The notes beneath the pieces were generated by a model. The model was not told the origin of the DNA. It searched no databases and saw nothing but the letters and a program-made list of their open reading frames with translations. The translations under genes were made by a program, and so were the position numbers. This document shows, in pieces, positions 16,078 to 40,721 of a stretch of 64,000 bases of DNA. The DNA comes from Granulibacter bethesdensis (lineage in GTDB: Bacteria; Pseudomonadota; Alphaproteobacteria; Acetobacterales; Acetobacteraceae): NCBI RefSeq assembly GCF_001889525.1, contig NZ_CP018192.1, positions 682,001-746,000 of the forward strand, read 5' to 3'. Position 1 is the first letter of the stretch. Each line of letters begins with the position of its first letter.

Positions 16078-18129
16078 ATGGTTGCGATCACAGGCTCATC
16101 CACCGTGTTGTCTGCCTATGGTCAGGCTGTCGCCAATGTTCTGGATAATAGCGGCGCAACCACAGCCTATGTTTATCCGACCATCCTTCAGGATGGGACG
16201 CTCTCTGTCATATCCGCGACTCCCATCATCGACCTGACATCTGCAACACCTTACGGATACGCGGATTGCTCCAGCTGGGTTCATTATGTCATGAACACGC
16301 TGGCGCCGGTACAGGATGCCTATGTGCAGGCGCTGAGAAATGCTCCGCTCTATAATCAGACGGTAACAGCCTACGGCGGTCAAACAGTCGTGCTGAACGG
16401 CTCATTCCAGCCATGGGCGCAGGCCAATGTTCTGCAGGATGCCTTCGCTTCGGCCAGTGCGGGCACAAACGGGCTTCAGACAATTGACGTCAATAATGCC
16501 TCGGTGGGTTTGACGGCATTACAGGCGGGGGATCTGATTGCTTATTCCACCGGAATCTATACCGATCCTGATGCTGCCAACGCATCGACCAATCCGGAGC
16601 TGAATGCGACGGGGGATACCGGGCATGTCATGGTGGTCAGGGATACGCCGACGACCGTGCCTGTTTCCTCATTGCCTTCTGACCAGCAAACAGCCCTTGC
16701 CGCTGCCGGCGTAGTGACAGTGTATGCTGTTAATGTCATTGATAGCAGCGATGTTCCACATGCCAATGATTCCCGCCCGGAAAACAGCGGCAATCACTAT
16801 GTGCAGCGGGTTCAGGACGGTATTCTCCCTGCTGCTGCTTCTATCCATGCTGGTGGCATCGGCATGGGAACGCTGTATTTCGGTGCGACTGCCAGCGGAC
16901 AGATTACTCATCTGATGTTCCGTGACGATTTTGGATGGCATCCAACCAGCAGTGCTCCGTCTGCATTGAAACTTTCTGCGGCTCGTCTGACAGGCAGTGT
17001 CGATCTGGATGCAGTATTGGCCAATCTGCGGAGTGCGGGGGTGACGGTCTCGGATAACCGCCTGATTGTCACGGTTGACCCCAACGCGGCCACGACGATT
17101 GCAGGTAATACCTATGCAATGACCACCAACCTGACGGGCTCTGCCGGGTTGCTGGTGCAGGGTGGCGGGACGCTGACGCTGAATGGTAACAGCACCTATA
17201 GCGGTGGCACTGTGCTGAATGGGGTGACGCTGAATGTCACCACGGCAACCGGTGCGGGCACCGGCGGTATTTCTACCCGGGCAGGCAGCAGCAACACAAT
17301 CTGGCTGCATAGCGGGAAGGAAGCCATTACCGCCAATGGTGCCGACACCATTCATGCTGGTGCCGCTGAAGTCGCGTTGAATGGCACTGGTACATTTCTG
17401 TTCATGGGAGGAAGCGGAGCCTCGACGGTTTCCGGTGGTTCAGGTGCGTCTACCCTGCTCGGTGGTAGTGGCGGCGGTGTTTATAGTGCTGCTGCATCAG
17501 GCATTGTTGCGGCGAGCGGTAATACGACTTTGGTGGGCGCGGGCCATAACAGTCTGCTGTTTGGCGGAGAGTCCGGCACTGTCATGTTCGGTTCCGGTAC
17601 GGACACGCTCGTTGGCGGATCAGGGCAGGGGGTGCTGGTCAGTAACGGTGGCAATGCGATTGTAACCGGCAGCGGGCAGTCCAGCGTGTTTGGCGGACAG
17701 TCCGGTCAGGATACGGTGGTGTCGGCTCAGGGAAGCAACACTGTCATTGCCGGGGCGGGGAATATGGCGCTGGTTGGTGGAGGCAACACGACCTTGTGGG
17801 GTGGTTCCGGTAACACCGAACTCTGGACGGGCGCCGGGTCGATGCAGGCTGCGTTGGGCAGCGGACAGAATGCGATCTTTCTCGGCAGTGGCGCGGCCAC
17901 TGTCTTCGCCGGGACCGGTCAGGACGTGTTTCAGATGACCAAGGGACAGACTGGCGGCAACACCCGGATCTACGGGTTCAATGCGGCAGCGGACACGGTC
18001 CGGCTCAGCGGTTATGTGGCGGGGGATGTCTCCATCGCGGTACAGGGCGGCAGCAGCGTCATGGCGCTGGCGGATGGTGCGACAGTCACTTTTGTCGGCG
18101 TGACCGGGCTGCACTGGCAATCCTCCTGA
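16078..18129 (+). CDS. Repeat-scaffold protein with NlpC/P60-like cysteine domain
   Basis: A 683-residue protein with three parts. The N-terminal domain (about 1-290) resembles the NlpC/P60 papain-like fold: YADCSSWVHYVM with Cys64, LQAGDLIAY near residue 150, and TGHVMVVRD with His183. Next is one autotransporter-type beta-strand repeat, TLNGNSTYSGGTVLNGVTL (about 365-385). A Gly/Ser/Asn-rich tandem region (about 400-615) follows with units such as GGSGASTLLGGSGGG. The terminal module reads GQDVFQMTKGQTGG and ADTVRLSGYVAGD. No N-terminal signal peptide is visible, so type I-like export through the C-terminus is possible. Everything from the beta repeat onward is homologous to the protein at 34391-36607. 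Peptidase activity is inference. Confidence 0.7.
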   Translation: MVAITGSSTVLSAYGQAVANVLDNSGATTAYVYPTILQDGTLSVISATPIIDLTSATPYGYADCSSWVHYVMNTLAPVQDAYVQALRNAPLYNQTVTAYGGQTVVLNGSFQPWAQANVLQDAFASASAGTNGLQTIDVNNASVGLTALQAGDLIAYSTGIYTDPDAANASTNPELNATGDTGHVMVVRDTPTTVPVSSLPSDQQTALAAAGVVTVYAVNVIDSSDVPHANDSRPENSGNHYVQRVQDGILPAAASIHAGGIGMGTLYFGATASGQITHLMFRDDFGWHPTSSAPSALKLSAARLTGSVDLDAVLANLRSAGVTVSDNRLIVTVDPNAATTIAGNTYAMTTNLTGSAGLLVQGGGTLTLNGNSTYSGGTVLNGVTLNVTTATGAGTGGISTRAGSSNTIWLHSGKEAITANGADTIHAGAAEVALNGTGTFLFMGGSGASTVSGGSGASTLLGGSGGGVYSAAASGIVAASGNTTLVGAGHNSLLFGGESGTVMFGSGTDTLVGGSGQGVLVSNGGNAIVTGSGQSSVFGGQSGQDTVVSAQGSNTVIAGAGNMALVGGGNTTLWGGSGNTELWTGAGSMQAALGSGQNAIFLGSGAATVFAGTGQDVFQMTKGQTGGNTRIYGFNAAADTVRLSGYVAGDVSIAVQGGSSVMALADGATVTFVGVTGLHWQSS

Positions 18130-18140
18130 ACAGCCAGAAA

Positions 18141-18164
18141 GCTGCGGGGCTTAAGCCTCGCAGC
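18141..18164. terminator. Possible shared hairpin between converging genes
   Basis: GCTGCG (18141-18146) pairs with CGCAGC (18159-18164), with inner GGCTTAAGCC also self-complementary. It overlaps the end of the aroK-aroB frame and lies just after the repeat-protein stop. There is no clear T-tract. Confidence 0.35.
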
Positions 18165-19839
18165 CAGCCTCCCTCAATACTTCAACGACTGCATCCTGCG
18201 GCACGTCGCGGCTTGTGAAGGCCCGCCCGATCCCTTGTGCCAGCACAAAAGCAAGTTTGCCGTCCCGCATTTTCTTGTCGCGCTGCATATGGCCGATCAA
18301 CTGCTTGGCGGAAAAGCGGCGGTTGAGCATGGACAACTCGGCAGGCAGCCCGACCGAGGCGACATGGGCGATGACCCGGTCTGCATCCTGGCTCCGGCAA
18401 TGGCCGAGTTTGGCGGAGAGGCGGAATGCCAACCCCAGCCCCACCGCCACGCCCTCCCCATGCAGGATGGTGCCGTAGCCTAAATCGGCCTCAAGTGCAT
18501 GGCCGAATGTATGACCCAGATTGAGCAGGGCGCGGCCGTCATTCGGCTTTTCCTCCCGCTCATCATCCCCCACAACCTGCGCCTTGAAGGCGCAGGCGCG
18601 CATGATGGCTTCAGCCTGGCTGTCGCGTTCCCCTGTGGTGACGGCTTGTCCATGGGCTTCGCACCATTCGTAGAAGGCGGCATCGCCGATCAGCCCGGCT
18701 TTCACGATCTCCGCATAGCCGGCCAGCACTTCCCGATGTGGCAGGGTGCCGAGCGTCGTCGTATCCGCCAGTACCAGACGGGGCTGATGGAATGCGCCAA
18801 GCAGATTTTTACCATACGCGGTGTTGATCCCTGTCTTGCCTCCCACACTGGAATCGACCTGTGACAGCAGGGTGGTGGGAATCTGCACGAAAGGCAGGCC
18901 ACGCAGGGTTGCGGCAGCGGCAAAGCCCGCCAGATCGCCGACGACGCCGCCACCGAGGGCGATCACGGTGGTTCGGCGCTCTACCCCGGCAGCCAGCAGC
19001 CCGTCGGTCACACGGCCAAAGACCTCCAGAGATTTTGAAGTCTCTCCCGGTGGTACGACGATGCTGTCTGCCTTGATCCCGGTTTCCTCCAGACCTTTCA
19101 ACAGGATCGGCAGGTGAAGGGCGGCGACGGTCTCATCGGTGACGATTATCGCCCGTTTCTGCGGAATATGCGGGATCAGCAACGCTCCGGCACGGGAGAG
19201 CAGGGATTCGCCGATCACCACATCATAGCGATTGGCGGTCAGGCTGACGGTCAGCCTGCGTGGAGGCTGATATTCCTGAAGATGATGCAGGACGTTATCA
19301 GTGGTGCCATCCTGACTGTCATCGCCGCAATCCACGATCAGATCAGCCTCCGCATAGACGGGATGCCGCTCATTGATCAGCCGTTGCAGGATATCCGCTG
19401 GATCGCCCTGATTAAGCAGCGGCCGATGCGTGCGGCCGGAGACACGTTTCAGCAGCACCGGCAGGCGACAGCGTAGCCAGATGCTGACAGCGCCCTCCCT
19501 GATGACGCGTCGGGTTTCGGGGTCCATGAAGGCGCCGCCGCCAGTGGCGAGCACGAGGGGTTCCTCTGACAGGAGCCTGCGTACGACGCGGCGCTCCCCT
19601 TGACGGAATCCTGATTCACCATGGCGGGCAAAAATTTCCGCGACGTTGCAGCCCGCTGCGCGCTCAATCTCCGCATCCGCATCGCGGAACGGCATTCCGA
19701 GTCGGGCGGCCAGACGGCGTCCAATGGAGGTTTTTCCAGCTCCCATCAGACCAACCAGCACGATGCTGCGGCCTTGCAGCCAGGCCGGGGGTGTCACGGA
19801 ATCACGGAGAGAAGGGGCAAGGGCAGAGTTGCGTGTCAT
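18151..19839 (-). CDS. aroKB: Bifunctional shikimate kinase / 3-dehydroquinate synthase
   Basis: A 562-residue fusion of two shikimate-pathway enzymes. The N-terminal AroK part (about 15-190) has the P-loop VLVGLMGAGKTSIGRRLA, DADAEIERAAG, FRQGERRVV and LATGGGAF. The C-terminal AroB part (about 200-562) has the NAD-binding IALGGGVVGDLAGFAAA, PTTLLSQVDSSVGGKTGIN, GYAEIVKAG and the metal-binding NLGHTFGHALE. AroB makes 3-dehydroquinate and AroK phosphorylates shikimate, two non-consecutive steps. ATG 19839 is chosen; the frame extends to 19923, but those residues have no AroK counterpart. The xerD and accA genes lie close by in divergent orientation. Confidence 0.95.
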   Translation of the reverse strand: MTRNSALAPSLRDSVTPPAWLQGRSIVLVGLMGAGKTSIGRRLAARLGMPFRDADAEIERAAGCNVAEIFARHGESGFRQGERRVVRRLLSEEPLVLATGGGAFMDPETRRVIREGAVSIWLRCRLPVLLKRVSGRTHRPLLNQGDPADILQRLINERHPVYAEADLIVDCGDDSQDGTTDNVLHHLQEYQPPRRLTVSLTANRYDVVIGESLLSRAGALLIPHIPQKRAIIVTDETVAALHLPILLKGLEETGIKADSIVVPPGETSKSLEVFGRVTDGLLAAGVERRTTVIALGGGVVGDLAGFAAAATLRGLPFVQIPTTLLSQVDSSVGGKTGINTAYGKNLLGAFHQPRLVLADTTTLGTLPHREVLAGYAEIVKAGLIGDAAFYEWCEAHGQAVTTGERDSQAEAIMRACAFKAQVVGDDEREEKPNDGRALLNLGHTFGHALEADLGYGTILHGEGVAVGLGLAFRLSAKLGHCRSQDADRVIAHVASVGLPAELSMLNRRFSAKQLIGHMQRDKKMRDGKLAFVLAQGIGRAFTSRDVPQDAVVEVLREAGCEA

Positions 19840-19965
19840 GATTGCGGAGGCTAGCACAGGCACACGGTTTTGTCCGCCTCTCCGCCTTTTTTCCGTGATC
19901 GGAAGCGATGGGGAGGATGGCATGGACCGTCTGACGGAATTCAGGACAGGTTGAGGCCAAGACGT

Positions 19966-20109
19966 ATGCGGACTGCATTATTGATTGTTGTCGCACTTGG
20001 ACTGGTGGCGGCCGGAGGCATCTTCGTGGGGTTGGGTATGTTTCCGCCGCAGCCGCATGTGGCGGCGGTGCAGAAGACGCTGCCCAATGATCGTTTCGAT
20101 CATCACTGA
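19966..20109 (+). CDS. Small single-pass membrane protein
   Basis: A 47-residue frame starting at ATG 19966: MRTALLIVVALGLVAAGGIF is a strong membrane helix or uncleaved signal anchor, followed by a short polar tail rich in Pro, His and Asp (FPPQPHVAAVQ, FDHH). It begins 126 bases upstream of the aroK-aroB start on the other strand and ends 37 bases before xerD. It is plausible as a real gene from its composition and position, but I do not recognise a family. Confidence 0.45.
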   Translation: MRTALLIVVALGLVAAGGIFVGLGMFPPQPHVAAVQKTLPNDRFDHH

Positions 20110-20146
20110 TCGCTCCCCCTGATGCTTTGTGTCGGAGGCTGCGGTC

Positions 20147-21019
20147 ATGGAGCGGCATATCGAGAGTTTTCTGGAGATGCTGGCGGCCGAGCGTGGGGCA
20201 GCACGGAACACATTGCTGGCTTACGGGACTGACCTGCGCGACTGGTCCGGCTATGCCGCCCGTCACAGGGTAGATCCGTTATATGCTGAGGAGGCTGCCT
20301 TGCGTGGCTACCTCGCCGCGCAGAGCGGGGCCGGGAACGGGCCTCGCACCCAGTCGCGTCGCCTTTCTGCGCTACGGCAGTTTTACCGTTTCCTGCTGGA
20401 GCAGGGGACAAGGTCTGATGACCCCACTGCCCTGCTGGATGCGCCGAAATTGCCGCGCTCTCTGCCGAAATATCTGGATGAGGCGGAGGTCGATGCACTG
20501 TTGCAGGCGGCTCCGGCCGAGCCGGCGGCCCATGCGGCGCTGGAAATACTGTACAGCACCGGCCTGCGTGTCTCCGAAGTGCTGGCGCTGCCCGCCCGCG
20601 CCTTCCGTGGAGATGCGCCCATGATGACGGTGCGGGGCAAAGGCGGCCGGGAGAGGATGGTGCCGGTCTCAGCCGCTGCCATTGCCGCGGTCGCGGCGAT
20701 GCGGAGCGGGGCGGAGCAATCACGCTGGTTGTTTCCCGGCCGTGATCCGGCAAAACCAATGACCCGACAGGGTTTTGCGTTGATGTTGAAACGGGTCGCG
20801 TTGCAGGCGGGTCTCGATCCTGCCCGGGTGTCTCCCCATGTGCTGCGGCATTGCTTCGCATCGCATTTGCTGGCGCGGGGGGCTGATCTCCGCAGCCTGC
20901 AAATGCTGCTGGGGCATGTCGATATCGCCACCACGCAGATCTATACCCATGTGTTGTCGGAGCGGTTGCGTGCACTGGTGGACTCCTGCCACCCGCTGTC
21001 CATCGCGGCAGAGGATTGA
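20147..21019 (+). CDS. xerD: Tyrosine recombinase XerD
   Basis: A 290-residue site-specific recombinase that resolves chromosome dimers at dif with XerC. The N-terminal SAM-like domain contains ERGAARNTLLAYGTDLRDW. The catalytic set is visible: Arg in YSTGLRVSEVLAL, Lys in VRGKGGRERMVP, His/Arg in SPHVLRHCFASHLL, His in LGHVDIATTQIYTHV and the Tyr nucleophile in the same stretch. ATG 20147 has GGAGG 9 bases upstream; GTG 20129 lacks a ribosome site. XerD rather than XerC is preferred because xerD commonly sits next to aroKB and accA in alphaproteobacteria. Confidence 0.9.
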   Translation: MERHIESFLEMLAAERGAARNTLLAYGTDLRDWSGYAARHRVDPLYAEEAALRGYLAAQSGAGNGPRTQSRRLSALRQFYRFLLEQGTRSDDPTALLDAPKLPRSLPKYLDEAEVDALLQAAPAEPAAHAALEILYSTGLRVSEVLALPARAFRGDAPMMTVRGKGGRERMVPVSAAAIAAVAAMRSGAEQSRWLFPGRDPAKPMTRQGFALMLKRVALQAGLDPARVSPHVLRHCFASHLLARGADLRSLQMLLGHVDIATTQIYTHVLSERLRALVDSCHPLSIAAED

Positions 21020-21090
21020 GTTCTGCTGCGGGGCGTCATGTGCATCAGATGGGTAGCGCGCCGCCCGTATGGCTGCTAAAGCCCCTGCTC

Positions 21091-22053: not shown

Positions 22054-22077
22054 TCATGCTTCCATTGCTATCTGATA

Positions 22078-22112
22078 CGCCCGGCCAGCATACTCTGGCC
22101 GGGCGTTTCTGT
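22078..22112 (+). terminator. Terminator after accA
   Basis: CGCCCGGCCAG (22078-22088) and CTGGCCGGGCG (22095-22105) make a perfect 11-bp stem with a six-base loop followed by TTTCTGTTTC. Confidence 0.85.
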
Positions 22113-22113
22113 T

Positions 22114-24492
22114 TCAGAACGTGATCTTGAGGCCGCCATAGCCACCGATCGGTGCGGCCGGGCTGTAGGCACGCGGGTTGGTCGCATTGGGCGCCTGTGA
22201 CAGATAGACAGATGAGGTGGGCGAGAACGTGCCGTAAGTATAATATTTCTGGTTGGTCACGTTCATGATCACGCCGAACAGCTGGACATGCGGTGTAATC
22301 TGATAGGATGTGTTCAGATTGACGACGAAGAATGCAGGCAGCTTCTCATTGGTGTTGGCGGGGTCTCCGAACAGATAGGTTCCGCTCTGACCGATACCCA
22401 CCGCACCGACGATCCATTTCGGTGTCACGTTGTATGTAACGCCAACCTTGACGGTATTCTGCGGCACGCCGGGCATCCGGTTGCCGGGATTGACGGTAAT
22501 GTTGCCATTCGCATCCGTCACGGGATTGCTGCCGCCATCCTCGATGAAGGTGCTCTGATAAGTCGCATCGACATAGGAGTAGTTGAGGTAGGCCATCAGG
22601 CGCCTGGTGGTGTAATCAACATGGAAATCGACACCCTGACGCCGCGTCTGCCCGACATTCTGGAAAAAGCCGCGATCCAGTGTCACGCTGTTGACGAAAG
22701 CAATGTCGTCGTCAACGTTGGTGTGAAACAGGCCGAGTTTGTAGCCCAGCTTTGCATCGGCCGTCAGATGTGTGCTGCCGCGCAGGCCGGATTCCCAAGT
22801 ATGGGCAACGACCTGCTTGAGGTCCGGGTCACCGGTAAAGAAGTTCGCCAGACTGCAGGACTGCGCCGGATTGACGCAGGAAAGCTCTGCCTGTGTCGGT
22901 GCCCGGTTCGCTTCCGCATAGCTGCCGTAGAAGGTCAGCCAGGGCATGATCTTGTAGGTCAGTCCGGCTGAGGGATTGAAGCGGTTATAGACATGATTAC
23001 CCGTCACATCTCCGCCGCCAATCTGGTTGATGTCGATCTGGGCGGAGTTGAAGCGCCCGGCGACGGTCAATGACAGACGATCCGTCACGTCGAACGTATC
23101 GGTCACGAACAGGCCGAAGAAATTGTTGGTCAGACCGACGCGAACCGGAACATTCTGCCCCGGTTCATCCAGCAGGACACCCGGTCCGATAAAATCGCGT
23201 GAGACGGGCGTGATGCCACCGATATAGGAGGAGCCTCCGAACATGGTGGTGGCACCGTCATAGCTGCCTCCGGCGACGAAGTGATTCTGATGGCCGAACA
23301 GATCGTCCTTATTGGTGACCTGAGCGGAGGTGCCATAGCTGTTGGTGTTGGTCGTCTGCGCATCCAGCTCGGAATAGGAATAAGGATTATTGCCGAGATA
23401 GGCTGCAATCGGTGCGCCGCCTCGTGTCGTGCTGGGCAAACCGGTATCAGAATTGCACATCAGCCCGGAGCCATCATTGCAGGGGAAGTCATTGGCCGAA
23501 TTGCCGTTCATTACCCTCTGTTGGAAATAGGAATAGTAGGCGTTGCTCTGGATCGATGTATTGCGCCCGACGTCTACGTTACCGTTCACAGTCGCGAGAA
23601 TGTAGCGGTTGGAGATCTGGTTGGGCGCCGTGAACTGCGCTGCCGGATCGGCTTGCAGCAGCTGGACAGGCGAGGTGCCGGGACCATTCAGAACCGAATT
23701 GGCCATGGTCAGATTGAAATGCACCTCGGCACGGTCATTACGAATGCCGACATCCCCGTAGAAATTCTGGATATCGGTTGATTGCTGGTCACGCCAGCCA
23801 TCCTGATGCAGCACACTGCCGGCAAGATAAGTGGAAACGTTGCCGATACGCTTGCCGTATTGCAGATTGGCTCCCATTCGCCCGAACGATCCACCATACA
23901 GATCGATTTCTCCGCCCTGGTAGGTAAAGCCGTTTTTCATCTTGACGCTCAGGGCGCCGCCGATGGCATTCAGGCCAAACGCCGGGTTCGAGCCCTCCAG
24001 GTTCAGTGTGTCGATCGCCAGGTTGGGGATCAGATCCCAATTAACGGTATCGCCAAAAGCCTGATTGAACCGTACGCCATTGAGATAAACGGCCAGACCT
24101 TGCTCCGTTCCTTGTAGAGGGGACGCGGTAAAACCATGATATAACAGGGCGGGTTGCTGTGGATTACCTGAAGAATCGACCAGGTTGACACCTGCAACCT
24201 GCTGATTCAGCGCTCGGAGCATGTTCGGTGCACCGCGTAAGGCGATGTCTTTGGAATCCAGCACCGTTGAATCGGCCGGGACTTTGTTTTTGTCGATCCC
24301 GGATCCCAGCAATGGGGTGCTGCCAATGACGTTCAGTTCCGGAAGAGTAACAGTGCTTGCCTCTGTCGTGTCCTGCAAACCGGATGGTGCAGGCCGCACA
24401 GCCTTTGGTGACGCTGACTGAGCAAAGCCAAGGTGCGGAGCAAGGCAGGCAAAAACCGCAGCATAACCTGAGAGATTTTTTGATATTTTCAT
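22114..24492 (-). CDS. TonB-dependent outer-membrane receptor
   Basis: A 792-residue receptor. ATG 24492 is preceded by AAGGAGGG and gives a signal peptide (MKISKNLSGYAAVFACLAPH ending LGFAQ); the ATG at 24528 lacks this logic. A TonB-box-like region TVTLPELNVIG is followed by the plug (about 50-180) with PNMLRALNQQVAGVNL, YLNGVRFNQAFGD and GLNAIGGALSVKMKNGF. A 22-strand-type barrel follows and ends in GGLKITF, a terminal aromatic as expected for BAM recognition. Ligand unknown. Palindrome 24570-24589 lies 78 bases upstream and may be its operator. Confidence 0.92.
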   Translation of the reverse strand: MKISKNLSGYAAVFACLAPHLGFAQSASPKAVRPAPSGLQDTTEASTVTLPELNVIGSTPLLGSGIDKNKVPADSTVLDSKDIALRGAPNMLRALNQQVAGVNLVDSSGNPQQPALLYHGFTASPLQGTEQGLAVYLNGVRFNQAFGDTVNWDLIPNLAIDTLNLEGSNPAFGLNAIGGALSVKMKNGFTYQGGEIDLYGGSFGRMGANLQYGKRIGNVSTYLAGSVLHQDGWRDQQSTDIQNFYGDVGIRNDRAEVHFNLTMANSVLNGPGTSPVQLLQADPAAQFTAPNQISNRYILATVNGNVDVGRNTSIQSNAYYSYFQQRVMNGNSANDFPCNDGSGLMCNSDTGLPSTTRGGAPIAAYLGNNPYSYSELDAQTTNTNSYGTSAQVTNKDDLFGHQNHFVAGGSYDGATTMFGGSSYIGGITPVSRDFIGPGVLLDEPGQNVPVRVGLTNNFFGLFVTDTFDVTDRLSLTVAGRFNSAQIDINQIGGGDVTGNHVYNRFNPSAGLTYKIMPWLTFYGSYAEANRAPTQAELSCVNPAQSCSLANFFTGDPDLKQVVAHTWESGLRGSTHLTADAKLGYKLGLFHTNVDDDIAFVNSVTLDRGFFQNVGQTRRQGVDFHVDYTTRRLMAYLNYSYVDATYQSTFIEDGGSNPVTDANGNITVNPGNRMPGVPQNTVKVGVTYNVTPKWIVGAVGIGQSGTYLFGDPANTNEKLPAFFVVNLNTSYQITPHVQLFGVIMNVTNQKYYTYGTFSPTSSVYLSQAPNATNPRAYSPAAPIGGYGGLKITF

Positions 24493-24569
24493 GGACCGTT
24501 CCCTCCTTTTTCTGTTTTTGAAAGACATCAGGGAGCGGTCAATTGCGTAAAATGCTTCATAGATCGCAT

Positions 24570-24589
24570 AAAATGATGGAAATCATTTT
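24570..24589. promoter_or_regulatory. Palindromic operator-like site upstream of the TonB receptor
   Basis: AAAATGAT (24570-24577), spacer GGAA, ATCATTTT (24582-24589): perfect 8-bp arms. It resembles metal-regulator half-sites, but the spacing differs from a classical Fur box. It lies 78 bases before the receptor start. The regulator is unknown. Confidence 0.4.
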
Positions 24590-24690
24590 GGGATCGATAA
24601 GTTATTCAATTGTCACATTTTTTGCCGATGATTGTGAGGCAAGCATAATTTTAAATAATGCTTTAAGAAGGCTTTATGAGAACAGAGGTG

Positions 24691-24862
24691 GGGCTTTGTT
24701 GCATAGTCATTGATTGCGGGTCAGCCTCCTGCCAGACATAAGCGGGTCCATTATCATGCGGTTGCCAACTGCATTCTGGCGCTAAGCCACAGACGTTTCC
24801 GCCAAGTCGGCAGCTTCCTGGTATAGTCAGCCGCTCTGCCAGCAAGGGCATGAAAAAGGACA
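24691..24862 (-). pseudogene. IS5-like transposase 3' remnant with terminal inverted repeat
   Basis: Reading the minus strand from about 24862, frames give ALAGRAADYTRKLPTWRKRL then LSARMQLATA and a stop. A shifted frame continues with MDPLMSGRRLTRNQ and a stop. The pattern of a basic C-terminus ending in RRLTR-like residues is typical of IS5/IS4-type transposases. The segment ends at GGGCTTTGTTGCAT (24691-24704), which looks like an IS terminal inverted repeat. The rest of the element and the other end are missing. The identification is from memory of the family, not from a search. Confidence 0.45.
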
Positions 24863-24950
24863 ATACATAGTTTCAAAGTTTATCAACAATATGAATTGTA
24901 TTTTATAATTAAATTATAAATATATAATTACAATATAAAACATTAAAAAT

Positions 24951-24968
24951 ATCTTTTACGTAAAAGAT
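24951..24968. repeat. Perfect 18-bp palindrome
   Basis: ATCTTTTACGTAAAAGAT reads the same on both strands. It may be an operator or a chance product of the AT-rich context, though the central ACGT makes chance less likely. Confidence 0.6.
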
Positions 24969-25049
24969 GATTTTAATTTATATAATGATCTATCGTATGT
25001 TTATTCAAATATTTAATCGTGTAATATAAAGATAGGCCGGCTCTGTTTT

Positions 25050-25069
25050 TAATAATGATTATCAATTAA
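25050..25069. promoter_or_regulatory. Fur-box-like site
   Basis: AATAATGATTATCAATTAA (25051-25069) matches about 13 of 19 positions of the classical Fur consensus by eye. It lies between a TonB receptor and an outer-membrane barrel gene, a suitable place for iron control. Alphaproteobacterial Fur-like regulators can prefer other motifs, so the regulator is uncertain. Confidence 0.4.
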
Positions 25070-25098
25070 CCTTGGTGAGGAAATATTGATTTAAGTAA

Positions 25099-25128
25099 AT
25101 TTATATTGAATGATCATTCAATATAAAT
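25099..25128. promoter_or_regulatory. Perfect 30-bp palindrome, operator-like
   Basis: The half ATTTATATTGAATGA (25099-25113) is followed by its exact reverse complement, with TGATCA at the centre. The core TGAATGATCATTCA looks like a TetR-type operator. No TetR gene is in the window. It lies about 275 bases upstream of the barrel protein. Confidence 0.6.
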
Positions 25129-25403
25129 AAAACAAGCAATTGTTTGACGCAATTGTGTAATTTATTCATTGTGTTTGTCGTTTTTATCCAAGCTGGCAGA
25201 CGCTTTCTTAAGGTTACATCCATAGATCGATGCCAGAATAAAATATCGGCTATGCTGAAAAACGAAGTGGCATCCAACGGCGATACAGACTCTCACTTTA
25301 AGAGAGCCGCCGAAGTCAAGCAGGGGAAAGTCAACGCACGGCCGTGAGTGGGTGAGTTTGGCTGGCTTCACACTGCCGAGCGATGCGCGGGGAAACGTGC
25401 ACT

Positions 25404-26969
25404 ATGTGGACTATATTCAAGAGAGTATCGGCACATTCGATATGCGAGCGTGCCTGGACTGTCAGCGGCTTGGTCTGTGGCGTGGCGGTCATTTTCGCAC
25501 CGATGCAAGGCTGGGCTGATCAGGTTCTGTATGATTCACGTGGTACGCGGATTCAGGCTTTTATGGAGCTGGGCGGTGTGATCATGAATGGCGCTAATAT
25601 AAACTTTGGCGCCGGTTCGATTGTCTATCATGATGGACGTCCGGTCGCCAATCGCGGGCCTGTGACGGCCGAGCTATATTTCAAACCGGGCGTCATGGTG
25701 TCCCACCATTTCAATATTGGAACGTTATACGGGTCGGTCAATGCCATCGGTACCAAAACGGTCGGGCATGGCGATTTCGAGCAGTTTTCGCAGACCGGGC
25801 ATGAGCCTTTCTACATGGGGGTGGAGGAAGCCTATCTGGGATTTGAAACCAATCTTGCTTCTGGTGGCGGCAAGGATGTTGTCGCCATTCAGGGCGGAAG
25901 ACAGGTTTTCAAAATCGATGATGGCTTTCTCGTTGGTCGCGGAACATACAATACAGGCGGACGTGCGGCATGGTGGTATGCGCCCCGTATGGCGTTCTCG
26001 GGTCCGGGGGTGATCAAGTTTGATGGACATCCCGTGCGCGCCGATATCTTCGCGCTGGAAGTCAATTCCGATGCGGGCCTGACATATGGTTTCGATCGGC
26101 CCAGAAGCAGTTTCGCAGGCTTCGATGTCACACTGTTCCGCAGCAAGCCGGGCCTTGACGGCGCACCAACCTATGCCAATCGCGAGGCATATGTGACGCT
26201 GACCTACTTCAATATTTATGACTCCGACAAATCCAGCACCTATAATTACACCAGCCGCGCCAATCGTGACGGCATGAATGTTTATTCGCTGAGTTTCGGC
26301 GGCTCATTCGTTCCCATCAAGGCATTGGGAATCAGAAAGAACTTTACGCTCTATGGCCAATATGTCGGTGAACAGAACAGCAATGCCAGCCAAGGGTACC
26401 AGAGCGTTGATGCGTATGCCTATTATATAGAGCCAGGCTACAGTTTTTCTGATCTTCCATGGTCGCCCTCGGTCTATTACCGTCGCACCACCTATAGCGG
26501 TGAGAATAATCCCAAAGGAACGGTCAAGCACTCTTATGATCCGCTGTTTCTCTATAATGGCTCCCGCAAACTGTATGGCGGATATTTTTCGGGCGAGGTC
26601 GTTGGTGAATATCTGATGGGATATTCAGGATATGATGTTAATCAGGTCGGCATCACCCTTAATCCGCCTTTTCACGTTTTCAAGCATGATGACAAGACGG
26701 CTTTCAACATCATCTACTATAATGTTCTTATGAATCATCCTTCGCAGTACGGCCTGAATACCGGCAGTAACAAGTATAGCGATGAGGTGGATGTCTCGGT
26801 CAACTATCAGTATAGCCCGACTATCTCCGGTGCCATGCTGGCAGGTGTTGCATTTCCCGGCCGTAATGGCCTTGCCAATGTCGCGAGTTATCAGCCCGCA
26901 ACCGGTAACCAGCCTGTCGTCGGCGGCAATGCCTATGTGCTTGAGGCTTTTATCTACACGCGGTTCTGA
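25404..26969 (+). CDS. Outer-membrane beta-barrel protein (porin / alginate-export-like)
   Basis: A 521-residue exported protein. The N-terminal signal has a basic start, a hydrophobic core TVSGLVCGVAVIFAPM and cleavage near QGWA-DQ. The mature part is a series of amphipathic aromatic-rich strands, for example YFKPGVMVSHHFNIGTLYGS, NFTLYGQYVGEQN, YYIEPGYSF and AFNIIYYNVLMN. It ends in FIYTRF, a terminal Phe typical of barrels. VVAIQGGRQVFKIDDGFLVGR resembles a strand pair of the alginate-export group, but this is weak. ATG 25404 follows GGGGAAA; ATG 25383 is possible. The substrate is unknown. The neighbouring TonB receptor and Fur-like box suggest nutrient uptake. Confidence 0.7.
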   Translation: MWTIFKRVSAHSICERAWTVSGLVCGVAVIFAPMQGWADQVLYDSRGTRIQAFMELGGVIMNGANINFGAGSIVYHDGRPVANRGPVTAELYFKPGVMVSHHFNIGTLYGSVNAIGTKTVGHGDFEQFSQTGHEPFYMGVEEAYLGFETNLASGGGKDVVAIQGGRQVFKIDDGFLVGRGTYNTGGRAAWWYAPRMAFSGPGVIKFDGHPVRADIFALEVNSDAGLTYGFDRPRSSFAGFDVTLFRSKPGLDGAPTYANREAYVTLTYFNIYDSDKSSTYNYTSRANRDGMNVYSLSFGGSFVPIKALGIRKNFTLYGQYVGEQNSNASQGYQSVDAYAYYIEPGYSFSDLPWSPSVYYRRTTYSGENNPKGTVKHSYDPLFLYNGSRKLYGGYFSGEVVGEYLMGYSGYDVNQVGITLNPPFHVFKHDDKTAFNIIYYNVLMNHPSQYGLNTGSNKYSDEVDVSVNYQYSPTISGAMLAGVAFPGRNGLANVASYQPATGNQPVVGGNAYVLEAFIYTRF

Positions 26970-26991: not shown

Positions 26992-27022
26992 AAAAAAACG
27001 GGGCAATGAAGGCCCCGTTTTT
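26992..27022. terminator. Bidirectional terminator between barrel protein and secA
   Basis: ACGGGGC (26998-27004) pairs with GCCCCGT (27012-27018), with a seven-base A-tract on the left and TTTTT on the right, so it suits both converging genes. Confidence 0.85.
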
Positions 27023-27050
27023 CATTTCTTATTCAGAAAAATGAGCGTTT

Positions 27051-31068: not shown

Positions 31069-31071
31069 GCC

Positions 31072-32301
31072 ATGACTCATCCGGTTTCTCCTTTGGCCGT
31101 CACGCTGCCTGAGATGCCGCCTCTGCCGGGTGTCAGGCTTGGTGCGGCGGCAGCTGGTATCCGCTATAAGGGCCGCACCGATCTGGTCATGGTGGAGCTG
31201 GCACAAGGCACAACTGTTGCGGGGGTATTTACCCGCAACAAATGTCCCGGCGCACCGATCGGCTGGTGCCGGGAGGCACTGAAGGGCGGCCATGCGCGGG
31301 GGCTGGTGGTCAACGCTGGCAATGCCAATGTTTTCACCGGTCGCGCCGGGGAAGAAGCGGCTCGCCGCAGCGCTGAAGCGGCGGCAAAGTTGCTCGGCTG
31401 TGCGGAGGAGGAAGTTTTTCTGGCCTCCACCGGCGTGATTGGCGAGCAACTGCCTTATGAGCGGATTGTCTCCGCTCTTCCCGCCCTGCATACGGCGCTG
31501 ACCGAGGACACATGGCATGATGCCGCGCGTGGCATCATGACCACCGATACCTTTCCCAAGGGAGCGGTCCGTACTGCGAAGATCGGCGGAAAGACGGTGC
31601 GCATTCAGGGGATTGCCAAGGGCAGCGGTATGATCGCCCCGGATATGGCGACCATGCTTTGCTTCGTGTTTACGGACGCGGCCATTCCCGCGGCGGCTTT
31701 GCAGTCCATGTTGGGCAAGGCAGTCAAAACCAGTTTCAACCGCATCACGGTGGACAGTGATACCTCCACCAGTGACACAGTGCTGCTATTCGCGACTGGC
31801 CAGGCCAATCATCCTGGCGTCCCGGAAACAGGCGGTCCAGCCCTGCGCGATTTTGCGCGTGCCTTGTCTGAAATTTTGCTCGATCTTGCTCTTCAGGTGG
31901 TACGGGACGGCGAAGGCGCGCAGAAGCTGATCCGGATCGATGTCGAAGGTGCTGTCAGCAATGGTTCCGCCGAGAAAATCGCCATGTCCATCGCCAATTC
32001 CCCGCTGGTGAAAACGGCTGTTGCCGGAGAAGATGCGAACTGGGGTCGCATCGTGATGGCAGTCGGCAAGGCAGGTGAGCCGGCGGATCGCGACAAGCTT
32101 GGTGTTGCGGTTGGCGGCGTATGGATGGCCCGCAATGGCGGTGTGATCGACGGATATGACGAGGCTCCGGTTGTGGCCCATATGAAAGGCCGGGCAATCA
32201 ATATTGCGGTCGATCTTGGTCTCGGCAAAGGCCGGGCGACTGCCTGGACCTGCGATCTGACGCACGGTTACATCGACATCAACGGCTCCTACAGGAGCTG
32301 A
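31072..32301 (+). CDS. argJ: Glutamate N-acetyltransferase / amino-acid acetyltransferase ArgJ
   Basis: A 409-residue ornithine acetyltransferase. It recycles the acetyl group from N-acetylornithine to glutamate, and many members also use acetyl-CoA. The autocleavage site is in PDMATMLCFVFTDA with Thr194 as nucleophile. Other family marks are GVFTRNKCPGAPIGWCR, NAGNANVFTG, TDTFPKGAV, FNRITVDSDTSTSDTVLLFA and VAGEDANWGRIVMAVGKAG. It lies in an operon after the isomerase and 4 bases before the GNAT-MutT gene. Confidence 0.97.
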   Translation: MTHPVSPLAVTLPEMPPLPGVRLGAAAAGIRYKGRTDLVMVELAQGTTVAGVFTRNKCPGAPIGWCREALKGGHARGLVVNAGNANVFTGRAGEEAARRSAEAAAKLLGCAEEEVFLASTGVIGEQLPYERIVSALPALHTALTEDTWHDAARGIMTTDTFPKGAVRTAKIGGKTVRIQGIAKGSGMIAPDMATMLCFVFTDAAIPAAALQSMLGKAVKTSFNRITVDSDTSTSDTVLLFATGQANHPGVPETGGPALRDFARALSEILLDLALQVVRDGEGAQKLIRIDVEGAVSNGSAEKIAMSIANSPLVKTAVAGEDANWGRIVMAVGKAGEPADRDKLGVAVGGVWMARNGGVIDGYDEAPVVAHMKGRAINIAVDLGLGKGRATAWTCDLTHGYIDINGSYRS

Positions 32302-32305
32302 CAGG

Positions 32306-33475
32306 GTGGCGGATGAAGCGCGGCCGGAAAGGCCTCCGTTCAGCTTTCGGGCACGGAGCAGCGGTGCTGAGATAGCCCGTTCGCCATCGAGTCAGACTTC
32401 ATCCGAAACACCTGCCTTCAAGCCGCTCCGCACGGAGCGCCTTATTCTGCGTCCATTTTCCCCCGAAGATGCGCCGGCCCTGCACCGGTTGATCAATGAT
32501 TGGGAAATCAGTCGCACTTTGGCAGAAGTTCCGTTCCCTTATCCGCGCAGTCTGGCCGATGAGTGGATCGGTTCCACCTTGCAGGGTATCAGGGAGGGAA
32601 CCGCCTGGCATCTCGGCATTACCGGTCATGAAGGCTATGAGCCAGCCCCCAAGGAGACCCTGATCGGCGGGGTCGGCCTGCGTCTGCTGCCGGAAGGTCG
32701 CGGCAGTCTCCGGCAGGCTGGACGGGCGGCGAGCATTGGCTACTGGGTCGGACGGCGTTTCTGGGGGCATGGGGTGGCGACCGAGGCGGTCGGCAGGCTG
32801 TGCCGCTGGGCCATGGCCAATCTGCCGATCAACCGGCTGGAAGCGACGGCTGACCGCGATAATCTGGCCTCGATCGCAGTGCTGAAGCGAATTGGTTTCC
32901 GGGAAGTCGGGGCGGGCGTGAAACCCTTTCGCTCCCGGGCCGGAGAAGTGCCGGTGCTGCATTTCGAGGCGCTGCGGGACGATCTGTTCGGAGTGCCCGA
33001 TGCGGGCCTGCCGCGTGGGCGGGAACAGGTAACACCGCCACAATCGGGCATCATGCCGGGCATGGCGCCTGCCAATCTGCCAGTCCTGCTGGTGGTCGCG
33101 GCGGCGCTGGTGAACGCTCAGGGAGAGATCCTGCTGGCCCGTCGTCCGGAAGGGCGCAGCATGGCGGGGCTGTGGGAGTTCCCAGGTGGCAAGGTGGAAC
33201 CCGGTGAGACCCCTGAACAGGCCCTGATCCGTGAATTGCGGGAGGAACTGGGTGTAGATGCCTCTGCCGGATGTCTGGCCCCTCTCGCCTTTGCCAGCCA
33301 TGCGTATGAAAAATTTCATCTTTTGATGCCGCTTTACGCATGCCGTCGCTGGCAGGGTGTGCCGAGACCAAGAGAAGAGCAGGCTCTGGCATGGGTGCTG
33401 CCGGATCAACTCGACCGTTACCCGATGCCGGCGGCTGATATACCGCTCATCCCTATATTGCGGGATCTGCTCTAA
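32306..33475 (+). CDS. GNAT acetyltransferase fused to MutT-type Nudix hydrolase
   Basis: A 389-residue two-domain protein that starts with GTG 32306. Residues about 40-230 are a RimJ/RimL-type GNAT domain (LRTERLILRPFSPEDA, SIGYWVGRRFWGHGVATEA, NLASIAVLKRIGFREVGAG). Residues about 255-389 are MutT-like (ILLARRPEGRSMAGLWEFPG), with Nudix box GGKVEPGETPEQALIRELRE and EELG from residue 294. MutT hydrolyses 8-oxo-dGTP to avoid mutations. In many alphaproteobacteria a GNAT gene and mutT lie separately after argJ, so the fusion probably arose from adjacent genes. The acetyltransferase target is unknown. Confidence 0.9.
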   Translation: MADEARPERPPFSFRARSSGAEIARSPSSQTSSETPAFKPLRTERLILRPFSPEDAPALHRLINDWEISRTLAEVPFPYPRSLADEWIGSTLQGIREGTAWHLGITGHEGYEPAPKETLIGGVGLRLLPEGRGSLRQAGRAASIGYWVGRRFWGHGVATEAVGRLCRWAMANLPINRLEATADRDNLASIAVLKRIGFREVGAGVKPFRSRAGEVPVLHFEALRDDLFGVPDAGLPRGREQVTPPQSGIMPGMAPANLPVLLVVAAALVNAQGEILLARRPEGRSMAGLWEFPGGKVEPGETPEQALIRELREELGVDASAGCLAPLAFASHAYEKFHLLMPLYACRRWQGVPRPREEQALAWVLPDQLDRYPMPAADIPLIPILRDLL

Positions 33476-33492
33476 GCCTGCACTCTGACTGC

Positions 33493-34278
33493 ATGAGTCA
33501 TACATCTTCTGCGCAAGGCGCATGTCTGCTGGTGATCGGTAACGAGATTCTCTCGGGCCGTACGCAAGACAGGAATATCCAGTTTCTGGCTCGTGCATTG
33601 GGCGAGCATGGGTTGCCGCTGCGGGAGGTCAGGGTCATTCCGGATATCCGGGAAACCATTATCGCCACTGTGAATGAAACCCGTGCCCGTTTTGCTCATG
33701 TGCTGACCACGGGTGGTATCGGCCCTACTCATGATGACATTACCAGCGAATGTGTGGCGGCGGCTTTCGGTGTTCCGTGGGAGCCTCATCCGGAAGCATG
33801 GGCCTTGATGGAGGCGCATTATCCGCCGGGTGGCTTCAACCCGGCGCGTCAGCGCATGGCGACAATGCCGAGAGGGGCGAGGCTGATCGCCAATCCGGTT
33901 TCTCTCGCGCCGGGATTCAGTATTGGGAATGTGCATGTCATGGCCGGTATCCCAGCCGTTATGCAGGCGATGTTTCAGGATCTGGTCAAGCGTCTGCCTG
34001 CGGGGTTGCCCGTATTATCCCGCAGTGTTCATGCCTGGGATATTGCAGAAGGCACGATTGCTGCTGATCTGACGATTTTACAGATGCGTTGGCCTGATGT
34101 GGAAATAGGAAGTTATCCGTTCCAGAAAGAGGAAAACGGAAAGCGGATTTATGGCATCGCGATTGTTGCGAAAGGAACCAATGCCAGAAAGCTGGATGAT
34201 GTTGCTGCTGCTGTAATGGAATTGTTCGAAACATTTAATGTCTCTCCTGTTTTAGGAGAATTGGATCGAACATCTTGA
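33493..34278 (+). CDS. CinA/MoaB-like molybdopterin-binding domain protein
   Basis: A 261-residue protein of the COG1058 group, the N-terminal half of CinA. Key motifs are ACLLVIGNEILSGRTQDRN, LPLREVRVIPDIRETI and VLTTGGIGPTHDDITSECVAAAFG, the MPT-binding signature. GNVHVMAGIPAVMQAMF follows. The C-terminal nicotinamide deamidase domain of full CinA is absent. The role could be ADP-ribose or NMN-linked repair, or molybdopterin-like binding; it cannot be settled here. It follows the GNAT-MutT gene by 17 bases. Confidence 0.88.
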   Translation: MSHTSSAQGACLLVIGNEILSGRTQDRNIQFLARALGEHGLPLREVRVIPDIRETIIATVNETRARFAHVLTTGGIGPTHDDITSECVAAAFGVPWEPHPEAWALMEAHYPPGGFNPARQRMATMPRGARLIANPVSLAPGFSIGNVHVMAGIPAVMQAMFQDLVKRLPAGLPVLSRSVHAWDIAEGTIAADLTILQMRWPDVEIGSYPFQKEENGKRIYGIAIVAKGTNARKLDDVAAAVMELFETFNVSPVLGELDRTS

Positions 34279-34324
34279 AAAACAATATGAATACTTTATT
34301 TGTATCGGTTGTAATTTACTGTGC

Positions 34325-34343
34325 TGATTTTTCATAAAAATCA
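34325..34343. terminator. AT-rich hairpin between the CinA-like and repeat-protein genes
   Basis: TGATTTTT (34325-34332), CAT loop, AAAAATCA (34336-34343): perfect 8-bp arms, 47 bases after the stop. The weak AT stem could be a terminator or a regulatory site for the next gene. Confidence 0.35.
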
Positions 34344-34390
34344 TAATATATCTACAAATATCTGCGTATTTATTTCAGGGGCTGAATCGG

Positions 34391-36607
34391 ATGTCTAATT
34401 CTTCCAATGGGGTGCCAAGCTGGAATATTTATTCCGGCTCTGCTGAATCAGTGACGATCCCGCTTCTTTTTTATTCCAATGGCCAATATGTCACGCCGGA
34501 CTTCAGTCAGTTTACGGCAACTGGTACGCTGAATGTCAGGGTTTGGGTAGTTGGATTGGCCGGGCAGGCAGCCAACGGGGCATTAACCGCAGCCCCCGTA
34601 CCCGCTGTCTCTACGCAGGCGATCAGCAACATGACATCGACCTTTGTGGTTGATACCGGCTCTTTCCCGACTGTCATGCCACTGAGTTTAGTTCAGGCTG
34701 CATTGCCCGGTTTTACGGAGGCGCAGTTGCAGACCTATCCTCCTGGTTCTCTCACCTATAGCAGCGATAATGTCAGTATTACTGGCTACTACGTGCCGCT
34801 GACTCTGGCTTTTGCCGATGCAACCGATAACGGTGGGCAGCCACTGACGACGACGTTCAAGGTGCTTGTCTCCGACACCAGCCATGCGCATATGATGGGT
34901 TTGCGCTTCGATTATGATTCGACGACGCAGCAAAACTATACTTCCGCCTACAGCGCTCTCATGAATCTTGCCCCGATGCAGTCGGGGGCTATGTCGCGTG
35001 GCTATATCGTCAGTCAGGCTGGTCTTACTGTCGGGCTGAATCAGGCGAACGCGGGCAGCGGGTGGGCTTTCACCAAACTTGCTCCGGCATCGCAATCCGG
35101 TGATTGGCTGGCACCGCCGGTGACGGTTACCGTGAATGGCAAGGTACTGCCGGCAGGCTCAGTGTTGATTGATACCGGCCTGAATGAAATGTTCCTGAAA
35201 TATGAGGGCGGAAGCAGGCTGCCTGCAAACAGCACCATTACTCTTTCCATGTTGGGAACGGGCGGTGCTGTACAATATTCATTCAATACCGGGACACCCA
35301 CCGGTGTGGCGCCTTCTGTTGTCAGATCAGGCAATTCATCGACTGGTACTTTTGTGAACACCGGCCTGCATGCTCTGGCAGGCTTCGATGTTCTTTACGA
35401 TGCAGCGAACGGGCTGTTTGGATTAAGGGCGAATGGTCACTCGCCCCAATCATCGGTCTCGTTCGATCCGGTTTTCTCACTGTCCGGAAATATGAGCGTT
35501 CAGGCTGGTTTTCAATCTTCCCAATCCATTCTCTTGACAGGCCCGGCAACCTTGCAGGGGACCGGAAGCATATCCCTGGATGGTACGATCTCCGGCAACG
35601 GGCTCCTGACGGTGAAAGCCCCCGGGACTGTGACTTTGTCAGGCAATAATACGTATAGTGGCGGTACGGTTCTGGACGGGACCACCGTTGCTGTGAAATG
35701 GAATTCCAGCCTGGGAACAGGCGGCGTTGCAATGGCTGCGGGTTCGGCGAATGCCTTGTTTCTGAACAACGGCAACGCCACGGTCTGGAGTGCAGGCGCA
35801 GATACGATCAGCGCTGGCATGACATCGGTTCAGGTAGCGGCCAGCGGGGCCGGTAAGCTCACCTTTGTAGGAGGAAATGGGGCCTCCAAGATTTACGGGG
35901 GAGGTGGCGCCATGACCGTTTTCGGTGGTGCGGGAGAGGGTGTGGTCGCTGCTGGTGGTGCAGGCAGCGTGATCGTCAACGGTTCGGGCAACACCACGGT
36001 CACCGGGGGTGGCGGGAACGCCATTTATGGCGGGAGCGGAGAGGCTCTGGTTTTCGGTGGTGCGCAGGGTGCCAATAACATCCTTGGAGGAAGTGGCAGC
36101 AGCACCGTTGTCGGGCAGTCAGGAGATCATATGGTCGGGGGGGCCGGCAAGATGCTGATCTTTGGCAGTAACAACGCTACAGATACGATTATCGGTGGCA
36201 ATGCAACGACCGTGATGGGCGGCAATGCGGGCACGCAGCTTCTTTCCAATGGAAACACTGTGTTCTGGGGTGGTTCTGGAAATGACATGCTCTGGGGTGG
36301 CGCGGGCATTACAATCGCGACGCTGGGAAGCGGCAACGATACCACCTATATCGGCAGTGGTGCCATGAGCATTGCCGGAGGATCCGGCCAAGATATTTAC
36401 ACCGTCACTGCCGGGCAGGCCGGTGGATCGGCGGTGATCTTTGATTTTAATCCAGGCCAGGATTCGCTGGTGCTGGAAGGCTATGATACCGCGAGCATCG
36501 TCAAGACCGTCCAACCGGGTTATGTGACACTCAGCCTGCCCGATCAGACGATGTTGACATTCGTGGGGGCGGACCCGGCAAGCCTTCCTGGCCGGTCGAT
36601 AACCTGA
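34391..36607 (+). CDS. Repeat-scaffold protein with pepsin-like aspartic protease domain
   Basis: A 738-residue protein. The N-terminal domain (about 1-350) has two Asp-Thr-Gly motifs, FVVDTGSFPTVMP (Asp88) and VLIDTGLNEMFL (Asp261). Their 173-residue spacing is near that of pepsin, and the domain ends with LAGFDVLYDAANGLFGLRA, like the C-terminal strand of pepsins. One autotransporter-type repeat follows (TLSGNNTYSGGTVLDGTTV, about 414-432), then Gly/Asn-rich tandem units, then a terminal module GQDIYTVTAGQAGG and QDSLVLEGYD. The part after the protease domain matches the protein at 16078-18129. There is no N-terminal signal peptide. ATG 34391 has AGGGG 8 bases upstream. Proteolysis is inferred from the paired motifs. 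Confidence 0.72.
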   Translation: MSNSSNGVPSWNIYSGSAESVTIPLLFYSNGQYVTPDFSQFTATGTLNVRVWVVGLAGQAANGALTAAPVPAVSTQAISNMTSTFVVDTGSFPTVMPLSLVQAALPGFTEAQLQTYPPGSLTYSSDNVSITGYYVPLTLAFADATDNGGQPLTTTFKVLVSDTSHAHMMGLRFDYDSTTQQNYTSAYSALMNLAPMQSGAMSRGYIVSQAGLTVGLNQANAGSGWAFTKLAPASQSGDWLAPPVTVTVNGKVLPAGSVLIDTGLNEMFLKYEGGSRLPANSTITLSMLGTGGAVQYSFNTGTPTGVAPSVVRSGNSSTGTFVNTGLHALAGFDVLYDAANGLFGLRANGHSPQSSVSFDPVFSLSGNMSVQAGFQSSQSILLTGPATLQGTGSISLDGTISGNGLLTVKAPGTVTLSGNNTYSGGTVLDGTTVAVKWNSSLGTGGVAMAAGSANALFLNNGNATVWSAGADTISAGMTSVQVAASGAGKLTFVGGNGASKIYGGGGAMTVFGGAGEGVVAAGGAGSVIVNGSGNTTVTGGGGNAIYGGSGEALVFGGAQGANNILGGSGSSTVVGQSGDHMVGGAGKMLIFGSNNATDTIIGGNATTVMGGNAGTQLLSNGNTVFWGGSGNDMLWGGAGITIATLGSGNDTTYIGSGAMSIAGGSGQDIYTVTAGQAGGSAVIFDFNPGQDSLVLEGYDTASIVKTVQPGYVTLSLPDQTMLTFVGADPASLPGRSIT

Positions 36608-40713: not shown

Positions 40714-40721
40714 TTTTATTC

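Follow-up and report, generated by a model that had tools for sequence, protein, structure and literature searches.

Related RTX-type tails carry unrelated, predicted enzyme heads in two proteins of Granulibacter bethesdensis

Two genes of Granulibacter bethesdensis encode proteins, here called P0001 and P0002, that join unrelated heads to similar C-terminal halves (Table 1). In the reading we favor, to which we give a probability of roughly two in three, both are exoproteins of the RTX/type I class whose tails descend from one ancestral scaffold; the head of P0002 (N2) would be a two-lobed aspartic peptidase related to PecA, and the head of P0001 (N1) an orphan Cys-His-Asp domain whose type is probably papain/amidase. 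Each C-terminal half, made up of a single PATR, degenerate nonapeptides, and a serralysin-like end, would act as the export tail. P0001 and P0002 are most likely secreted or surface-held, as predicted from their sequences, and both heads are presumed to be enzymatically active. The genes lie 16 kb apart in the 64,000-nucleotide stretch of DNA that was analyzed (the window); the ORFs between them are unrelated, several of them housekeeping-type by eye, and GC content across the window runs from 46 to 62% in 2-kb steps. Granulibacter is an opportunist of patients with chronic granulomatous disease, and the source genome comprises 2.69 Mb in one contig.

Table 1. Positions of the two genes and their parts, numbered from the first nucleotide of the window.
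Feature	Position	Strand	Basis
P0001, 683 aa: N1 (Cys/His) head, PATR joint, degenerate RTX repeats, closing module	16078..18129	+	ORF, translation
N1 head, residues 1-345, orphan family	16078..17112	+	alignments A1 (9 rows) and A7 (12 rows)
Cys64, sole Cys of P0001	16267..16269	+	translation, A7
His183, invariant	16624..16626	+	A1, A7
Asp222, invariant, candidate third catalytic residue	16741..16743	+	A1, A7
PATR-like beta-strand repeat of P0001, residues 352-386 (best stretch 361-386)	17131..17235	+	Pfam PATR E 9.9e-5, below cut-off
Gly-rich repeats of P0001, period 9, RTX-type, 0 canonical GGxGxDxU	17365..17871	+	motif count, autocorrelation, matches to CyaA RTX chains
Closing module of P0001, serralysin-C-terminus-like, putative type I secretion end	17872..18126	+	alignment A4, profile against PDB
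P0002, 738 aa: N2 (aspartic) head, linker, PATR joint, degenerate RTX repeats, closing module	34391..36607	+	ORF, translation
N2 head, residues 1-347, two-lobed aspartic peptidase by motifs	34391..35431	+	A2, A6; PF13650 E 4.3e-4, below cut-off
Asp88 of first DTG, invariant in 17/17 rows	34652..34654	+	alignment A6
Asp261 of second DTG, invariant in 17/17 rows	35171..35173	+	alignment A6
Linker of P0002, residues 348-402, between catalytic domain and PATR	35432..35596	+	likeness to linker of autotransporter relatives, mixed controls
PATR-like repeat of P0002 (best stretch 412-432)	35597..35686	+	Pfam PATR E 4.3e-4, TIGR02601 E 0.001, both below cut-off
Gly-rich repeats of P0002, period 9, 2 canonical GGxGxDxU	35828..36340	+	motif count, autocorrelation
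Closing module of P0002	36341..36604	+	alignment A4, profile against PDB

Both reading frames lie on the forward strand where the sequence-only reading had put them (16078-18129 and 34391-36607), as confirmed by the ORF list and translations. The translations also contain the motifs it named: C64, GDLIAY at 151, and H183 in P0001; DTG at 88 and 261 in P0002; and, in both proteins, GQD, GQxGG, and TFVG near the C-terminal end together with one PATR-like strand repeat, below the Pfam cut-off in each case. By BLASTP, residues 352-674 of P0001 align with residues 400-726 of P0002 (133/328 identical, 41%; 194 bits), whereas the N-terminal domains yielded nothing above 20.0 bits, and their alignment score of 52 was reached by 163 of 500 shuffles. 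The C-terminal halves score 693, beyond the maxima of 176 in 200 residue shuffles and 304 in 200 shuffles of 9-residue blocks, and so their likeness exceeds what Gly-rich composition provides; the chance similarity that would have refuted the sequence-only reading does not account for it. For the closing modules taken separately the score is 154, with maxima of 52 (residue shuffles) and 110 (9-residue-block shuffles) in 500 each. The description of the pair as paralogous fits the C-terminal half but not the N-terminal domains, which had themselves been called unrelated.

Glycine autocorrelation peaks at lag 9 in both proteins, and the repeats gave weak to moderate matches to CyaA and serralysin chains. 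Because most of the calcium-binding Asp residues of GGxGxDxU are lost (no motif remains in P0001 and two in P0002), we term the tail RTX-like rather than canonical RTX. The RTX model NF033943 scored 30.3 and 41.6 bits for P0001 and P0002, far below its cut-off of 1000, and in Pfam HemolysinCabind fell below cut-off in P0001 and had no match listed in P0002. A profile of 18 closing modules from the same genome found serralysin in the PDB (E 1.8e-7), and 8 of the 18 modules matched PF08548 at E <= 0.1; the P0001 module alone had no match. These two results led us to reject the tail as a new platform. What had been proposed as a modular export tail with exchangeable heads stands as such, but the tail is of RTX/serralysin type, and exchangeable heads on an RTX tail are an already known RTX principle. 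The best reading of the sequence is an RTX-class tail that appears to have lost most of its calcium ligands, which would suit calcium-free folding. Like serralysin and other RTX type I exoproteins, P0001 and P0002 have 9-residue Gly-rich repeats, a serralysin-like C-terminal module, variable heads, and no signal peptide that we could find; they differ in their mostly lost calcium-binding Asp, in their unlinked exporter genes, and in the PATR placed between head and tail. The absence of a signal peptide from both proteins was borne out by a home-made hydropathy rule, and the C-terminal export route that had been implied is supported. RTX proteins are described as functionally diverse in a review (PMC3034196).

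Type I secretion genes, which the sequence-only reading had suggested looking for, are present elsewhere in the genome: an HlyB-like ABC protein at genome positions 224292-226565 is followed by an HlyD-family adaptor at 226707-228089, and a TolC-type protein is encoded at 1076350-1077579 (283.1 bits; cut-off 225.15). The HlyB-like protein scored 454.5, below the LssB cut-off of 693.1. Because none of these ABC, HlyD, and TolC genes adjoins the gene of P0001 or P0002, we infer, rather than assign, an ABC/HlyD/TolC transporter as their exporter. Two other candidates were rejected. The neighboring ABC gene at window positions 13353-15059, presumably an ATM1-type exporter, is 1 of 10 ABC_membrane matches in the genome and was discarded as a dedicated exporter; an ABC pair at genome positions 1697463-1702554 was discarded as a classical exporter, its first protein looking by eye like a C39-peptidase bacteriocin exporter. 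A limited literature search found nothing on type I secretion in Acetobacteraceae.

The P0001/P0002 pair is not special within its own genome. Among 219 ORFs of at least 250 aa, taken from the window and 17 stretches, most of them selected because they matched P0001 or Hint_2, the closing module occurs in 18, P0001 and P0002 included, so the genome holds at least 18. Of eight such same-genome proteins scanned with Pfam, three combined a subtilase domain with a P-domain match (below cut-off in one of them), two exceeded the RTX cut-off of 23 (42.8 and 43.8 bits), one had RTX below cut-off (21.7), one had AIDA stalk repeats (PF16168), and one was matchless. Across Acetobacteraceae the closing-module profile matched 249 of 299 genomes and 92 of 102 genera, a count of RTX-type ends rather than orthologues, since the profile resembles RTX ends generally. 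Both this breadth and the several kinds of head on the 18 same-genome ORFs would be expected if P0001 and P0002 were products of ordinary RTX diversity, that is, just a pair among numerous type I substrates whose heads are unrelated, with PATR a common beta-strand motif and no switch of route. We place the two tails on one scaffold: in a tree of PATR-to-end halves from five N1 and two N2 proteins, with 8 of 16 other same-genome tails added and L109 left out, the N1 and N2 halves formed one set (99/98) apart from the other eight. Regarding the order within this scaffold clade, an N1-only clade had an AU p of 0.238.

Listing the heads found on related tails showed that N1, N2, and subtilase heads all ride closing-module tails, and that N1 and N2 also occur on other carriers. 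N1 sits on degenerate RTX tails in P0001, its congeners L046 and L047, L080, and L083; on canonical RTX in L109 (8 RTX stretches); by Pfam, on Hint_2 in L048 and L049 and on DUF4214 in L079; and on a short tail in L081, while L084 and L085 are stand-alone, a form that occurs in Corallococcus. N2 sits on degenerate RTX in P0002 and L055, on DUF4214 in L057 (Pfam), on an autotransporter in L064 (a shorter copy of L089), and on full-length autotransporters in L086, L087, L088b, and L089, whose last 290 residues align mutually. PF03797 was scanned for and found only in L064 (43.6 bits), and L086, L087, and L088b are called autotransporters by alignment to L089. In L088a (also L060) the N2 chain ends after PATR, and further relatives are stand-alone or signal-peptide enzymes. 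Signal peptides sort by carrier: under the same hydropathy rule they were present in 1 of 12 proteins on RTX, Hint_2, DUF4214, or short tails and in 22 of 23 of the rest. The single positive of the 12, L079, is doubtful, being the first domain helix behind an upstream start; the single exception among the 23 is L065. This table excludes L046, L082, and L119, and L048-L053 apparently duplicate L077, L078, and L080-L083, with one of each kept in the table and in the trees.

PATR may be a joint, because P0002 resembles autotransporter-borne relatives before it and P0001 after it. The N2 head, linker, and PATR follow in the same order in the type Va autotransporters L086, L087, L088b, and L089, all of which have a signal peptide by the hydropathy rule, whereas P0002 has an RTX-type tail; neither a signal peptide nor a C-terminal barrel match was found in P0001 or P0002 (hydropathy rule and Pfam). 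Residues 10-17 of P0002, SWNIYSGS, align with GWNLYDGS of L086, directly after the putative signal peptide. We compared the strict 44-residue linker of P0002, PATR-anchored and ungapped, with these four autotransporters and L088a, which are kin and not five events, using 1000 shuffle sets. Scores were 23 for L086, 9 for L087, 24 for L088a, 26 for L088b, and 52 for L089, reached by 1, 12, 1, 1, and 0 of the 1000 sets; for eight N1 proteins the scores ran from -19 to 4, and between 66 and 483 of the 1000 sets reached them. In L088b the homologous place was the second of the PATR-like patterns, the first scoring 3 (21/1000), and later PATR patterns of L086, L087, and L088b scored 1, -11, and -11. 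A looser linker, residues 348-402 with the strand before PATR, beat all 300 shuffles for four of five relatives and for none of six N1 proteins; once PATR was included, N1 proteins matched too, and PATR is thus common to both sides.

Other comparisons count against a joint at PATR or fit ordinary RTX diversity. Under free local alignment the strict linker is weak, its score being reached by 20 (L086), 264 (L087), 2 (L088b), and 0 (L089) of 1000 shuffles; in L086 and L087 the homologous place (34 and 25) is outscored by other downstream windows (45 and 44), and the best homologous linker value is 55, against a maximum of 54 in windows taken from 29 other Gly-rich ORFs. Wherever PATR was matched, the score stayed below cut-off. 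In the N2 tree P0002 groups with L057 (97/95), the nearest N2 head, which has no PATR match in Pfam, and not with the autotransporter set; holding P0002 with that set was not rejected (AU p 0.191). Against ordinary diversity stand the PATR-anchored linker, which matches the autotransporter-borne relatives and not the N1 proteins, and the sorting of heads and signal peptides by carrier. We give ordinary diversity without any switch a little under an even chance. An exchange of heads and tails at PATR is a tentative proposal, and the sequences suggest a switch of export route there. Its fullest form, which we hold no more firmly, makes PATR a recombination joint that moves enzyme heads between autotransporter (Sec plus barrel) and type I (RTX tail) routes, with the signal peptide lost or kept to match: in its relatives the aspartic head is predicted to travel by Sec signal peptide and autotransporter tail, and in P0002 it has an RTX-type tail and no signal peptide. 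The window would then hold one PecA-related product of such a move and a member of an orphan cysteine-hydrolase family travelling likewise; the direction and mechanism of any head/tail swap would be conjectural. A limited literature search found no account of an autotransporter/type I route switch, which is weak evidence. If true, the joint would show how a protein changes its secretion route during evolution, and the N1 and N2 relatives on differing export devices suggest that such enzymes may be re-routed by tail swap at a common joint.

In our favored reading the N2 head is an aspartic peptidase, as the sequence-only reading had supposed from its two DTG motifs, and two further observations agree: both catalytic Asp residues are retained in every aligned row, and two relatives in the same genome exceed the cut-off of PE-PGRS_C. 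The source genome has three N2 relatives besides P0002. One, at 419694-421088(-), starts like a lipoprotein by eye; the other two, at 607604-608425 and 671477-672346, are divergent. The divergent relatives L106 and L107 scored 59.1 and 39.3 bits against PE-PGRS_C (PF20729; cut-off 33), and in a profile comparison L106/L107 aligned with the N2 family over 306 columns (99.0%, E 6.7e-18), one side consisting of two sequences. The P0002 head itself had no PF20729 match in Pfam, matching only PF13650 below cut-off; we therefore treat N2 as distant kin of mycobacterial PecA-type peptidases and not as a proven member, and claim no PF20729 membership. A single-sequence model of N2 had a pLDDT of 35.9, and PDB searches with both heads returned nothing significant. 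The aspartic gene of G157 (L056/L068) was left out of the trees.

The mycobacterial surface protein PecA is an aspartic protease whose substrates are PecA itself and many PE_PGRS proteins; in bacteria, aspartic proteases are described as rare and generally cytoplasmic (PMC6819658). PecA (PE_PGRS16) shares with P0002 the two DTG/DSG motifs and, like the predicted exoprotein P0002, combines its peptidase with a Gly-rich (PGRS) part in an exported protein; P0002 differs in having its head at the N-terminus and an RTX-type tail where PecA has PE/PGRS and type VII secretion. By analogy with PecA, the aspartic head of P0002 would act outside the cell and perhaps processes other surface or secreted proteins. 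A 2009 survey identified pepsin homologues in seven bacterial species, predicted no signal peptide for any of them, and regarded them as intracellular (PMC2761423); these are bacterial aspartic peptidases like N2, whereas the N2 family is mostly predicted to be exported. APRc, described as a rickettsial retropepsin-like aspartic protease (PMC4140852), resembles N2 by that description, as an aspartic peptidase in bacteria. A mostly predicted-exported aspartic peptidase family on several carriers is material for studying the export of such enzymes and their action outside the cell.

The N1 head is harder to place. All 12 N1 rows retain C64, H183, and D222, and Cys is absent from the 17 other closing-module proteins counted (one cut by the locus end). 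Nine members had no significant Pfam match, with NLPC_P60 not among the matches up to E 1, and 12 members each had none in NCBIfam and PHROGs, where the best E values (0.05 to 0.08) fell on unrelated names; a PF00877 search of the source genome gave zero matches. These nulls would fit another cysteine-enzyme fold, as would hhalign, which aligned N1 with E. coli K-12 MepS, NlpC, and MepH over 17 columns at 9.7% probability, the E. coli set having been used because, of 40 family genomes, just 1 had an NLPC_P60 match. A rerun against E. coli NlpC/P60 scored 27.8 and beat 60 of 60 column-shuffled controls (maximum 18.6), the best PDB match of N1 was a lysin at the GD motif (E 0.087), and the order of motifs fits the pattern C ... 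GD ... GH ... D of NlpC/P60 proteins; all three argue against a different fold, which we regard as unlikely. N1 shares the Cys, GD, GH order with NlpC/P60 and CHAP peptidases, with weak profile support, and differs in having no significant family match and in a candidate third residue that is Asp, where theirs is usually His, Asn, or Gln. An amidase fold for N1 is likely from these patterns and hydrolysis of peptide or amide bonds would follow from it, while the NlpC/P60 identity proposed for the head is unproven. That P0001 and P0002 are instead large surface adhesins or matrix proteins with inactive or binding heads is improbable: several same-genome closing-module proteins do have long stalk-like repeats without a recognized enzyme head, and one has the AIDA stalk, but the presumed catalytic residues of both heads are invariant and three closing-module proteins are subtilases.

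N1 matched 8 of 299 family genomes and 3 of 299 in a phylum sample, and nine loci with N1 lie in named genomes, among them Acidisoma, Reyranella, and Corallococcus. One of the three phylum matches, G522/L110, was counted as false, being limited to profile positions 63-147 in an ORF that looks dioxygenase-like by eye. N2 matched 14 of 299 family genomes and, as a profile, 5 of 299 in the phylum sample, the source genome included in each. Viral contigs scanned for N1 and N2 held zero relatives, and plasmids scanned for N1 held none. The plasmid scan for N2 gave two partial matches; the one on a Methylobacterium plasmid stands alone and begins, by eye, with what resembles a signal peptide.

Outside the window, nine open reading frames (ORFs) lie in tandem, each with the RTX-type closing module, the serralysin-like C-terminal end common to P0001 and P0002; six of the nine were read at full length. 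Most carry stalk-like repeats of AIDA-like appearance by eye. The AIDA stalk repeat PF16168 was absent from the sole cluster member scanned, and it matched a separate ORF similar to those of the cluster. Hint_2, one of the alternative tails on relatives of the P0001 Cys head, scored above cut-off at seven loci, some of these matches falling within exceptionally long reading frames, the largest of which runs to 3906 aa.

Two more aspartic-peptidase genes, both with predicted signal peptides, scored above the cut-off for PE-PGRS_C, the PecA-type family. In the congener genome G157, the aspartic gene (loci L056 and L068) is broken across two reading frames, reflecting either a pseudogene or a sequencing error.

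Two ABC exporters and one HlyD-like protein resemble, by eye, a C39-peptidase bacteriocin export cluster. In 2-kb steps, window GC content has low points of 46% and 48% and is otherwise 52 to 62%.

Coordinates of features (whole contig unless marked as window)
Feature	Coordinates	Strand	Loci
Hint_2 matches	1273187-1859894		L009-L015
Tandem closing-module cluster	1773306-1811498	(-)	L028-L030
Cluster ORF scanned for PF16168	1773306-1775519
ORF with PF16168 match	627845-633541
ABC exporter cluster	1696120-1702554		L037
Aspartic-peptidase gene	607604-608425		L106
Aspartic-peptidase gene	671477-672346		L107
GC 46%	window 24001-26000
GC 48%	window 40001-42000
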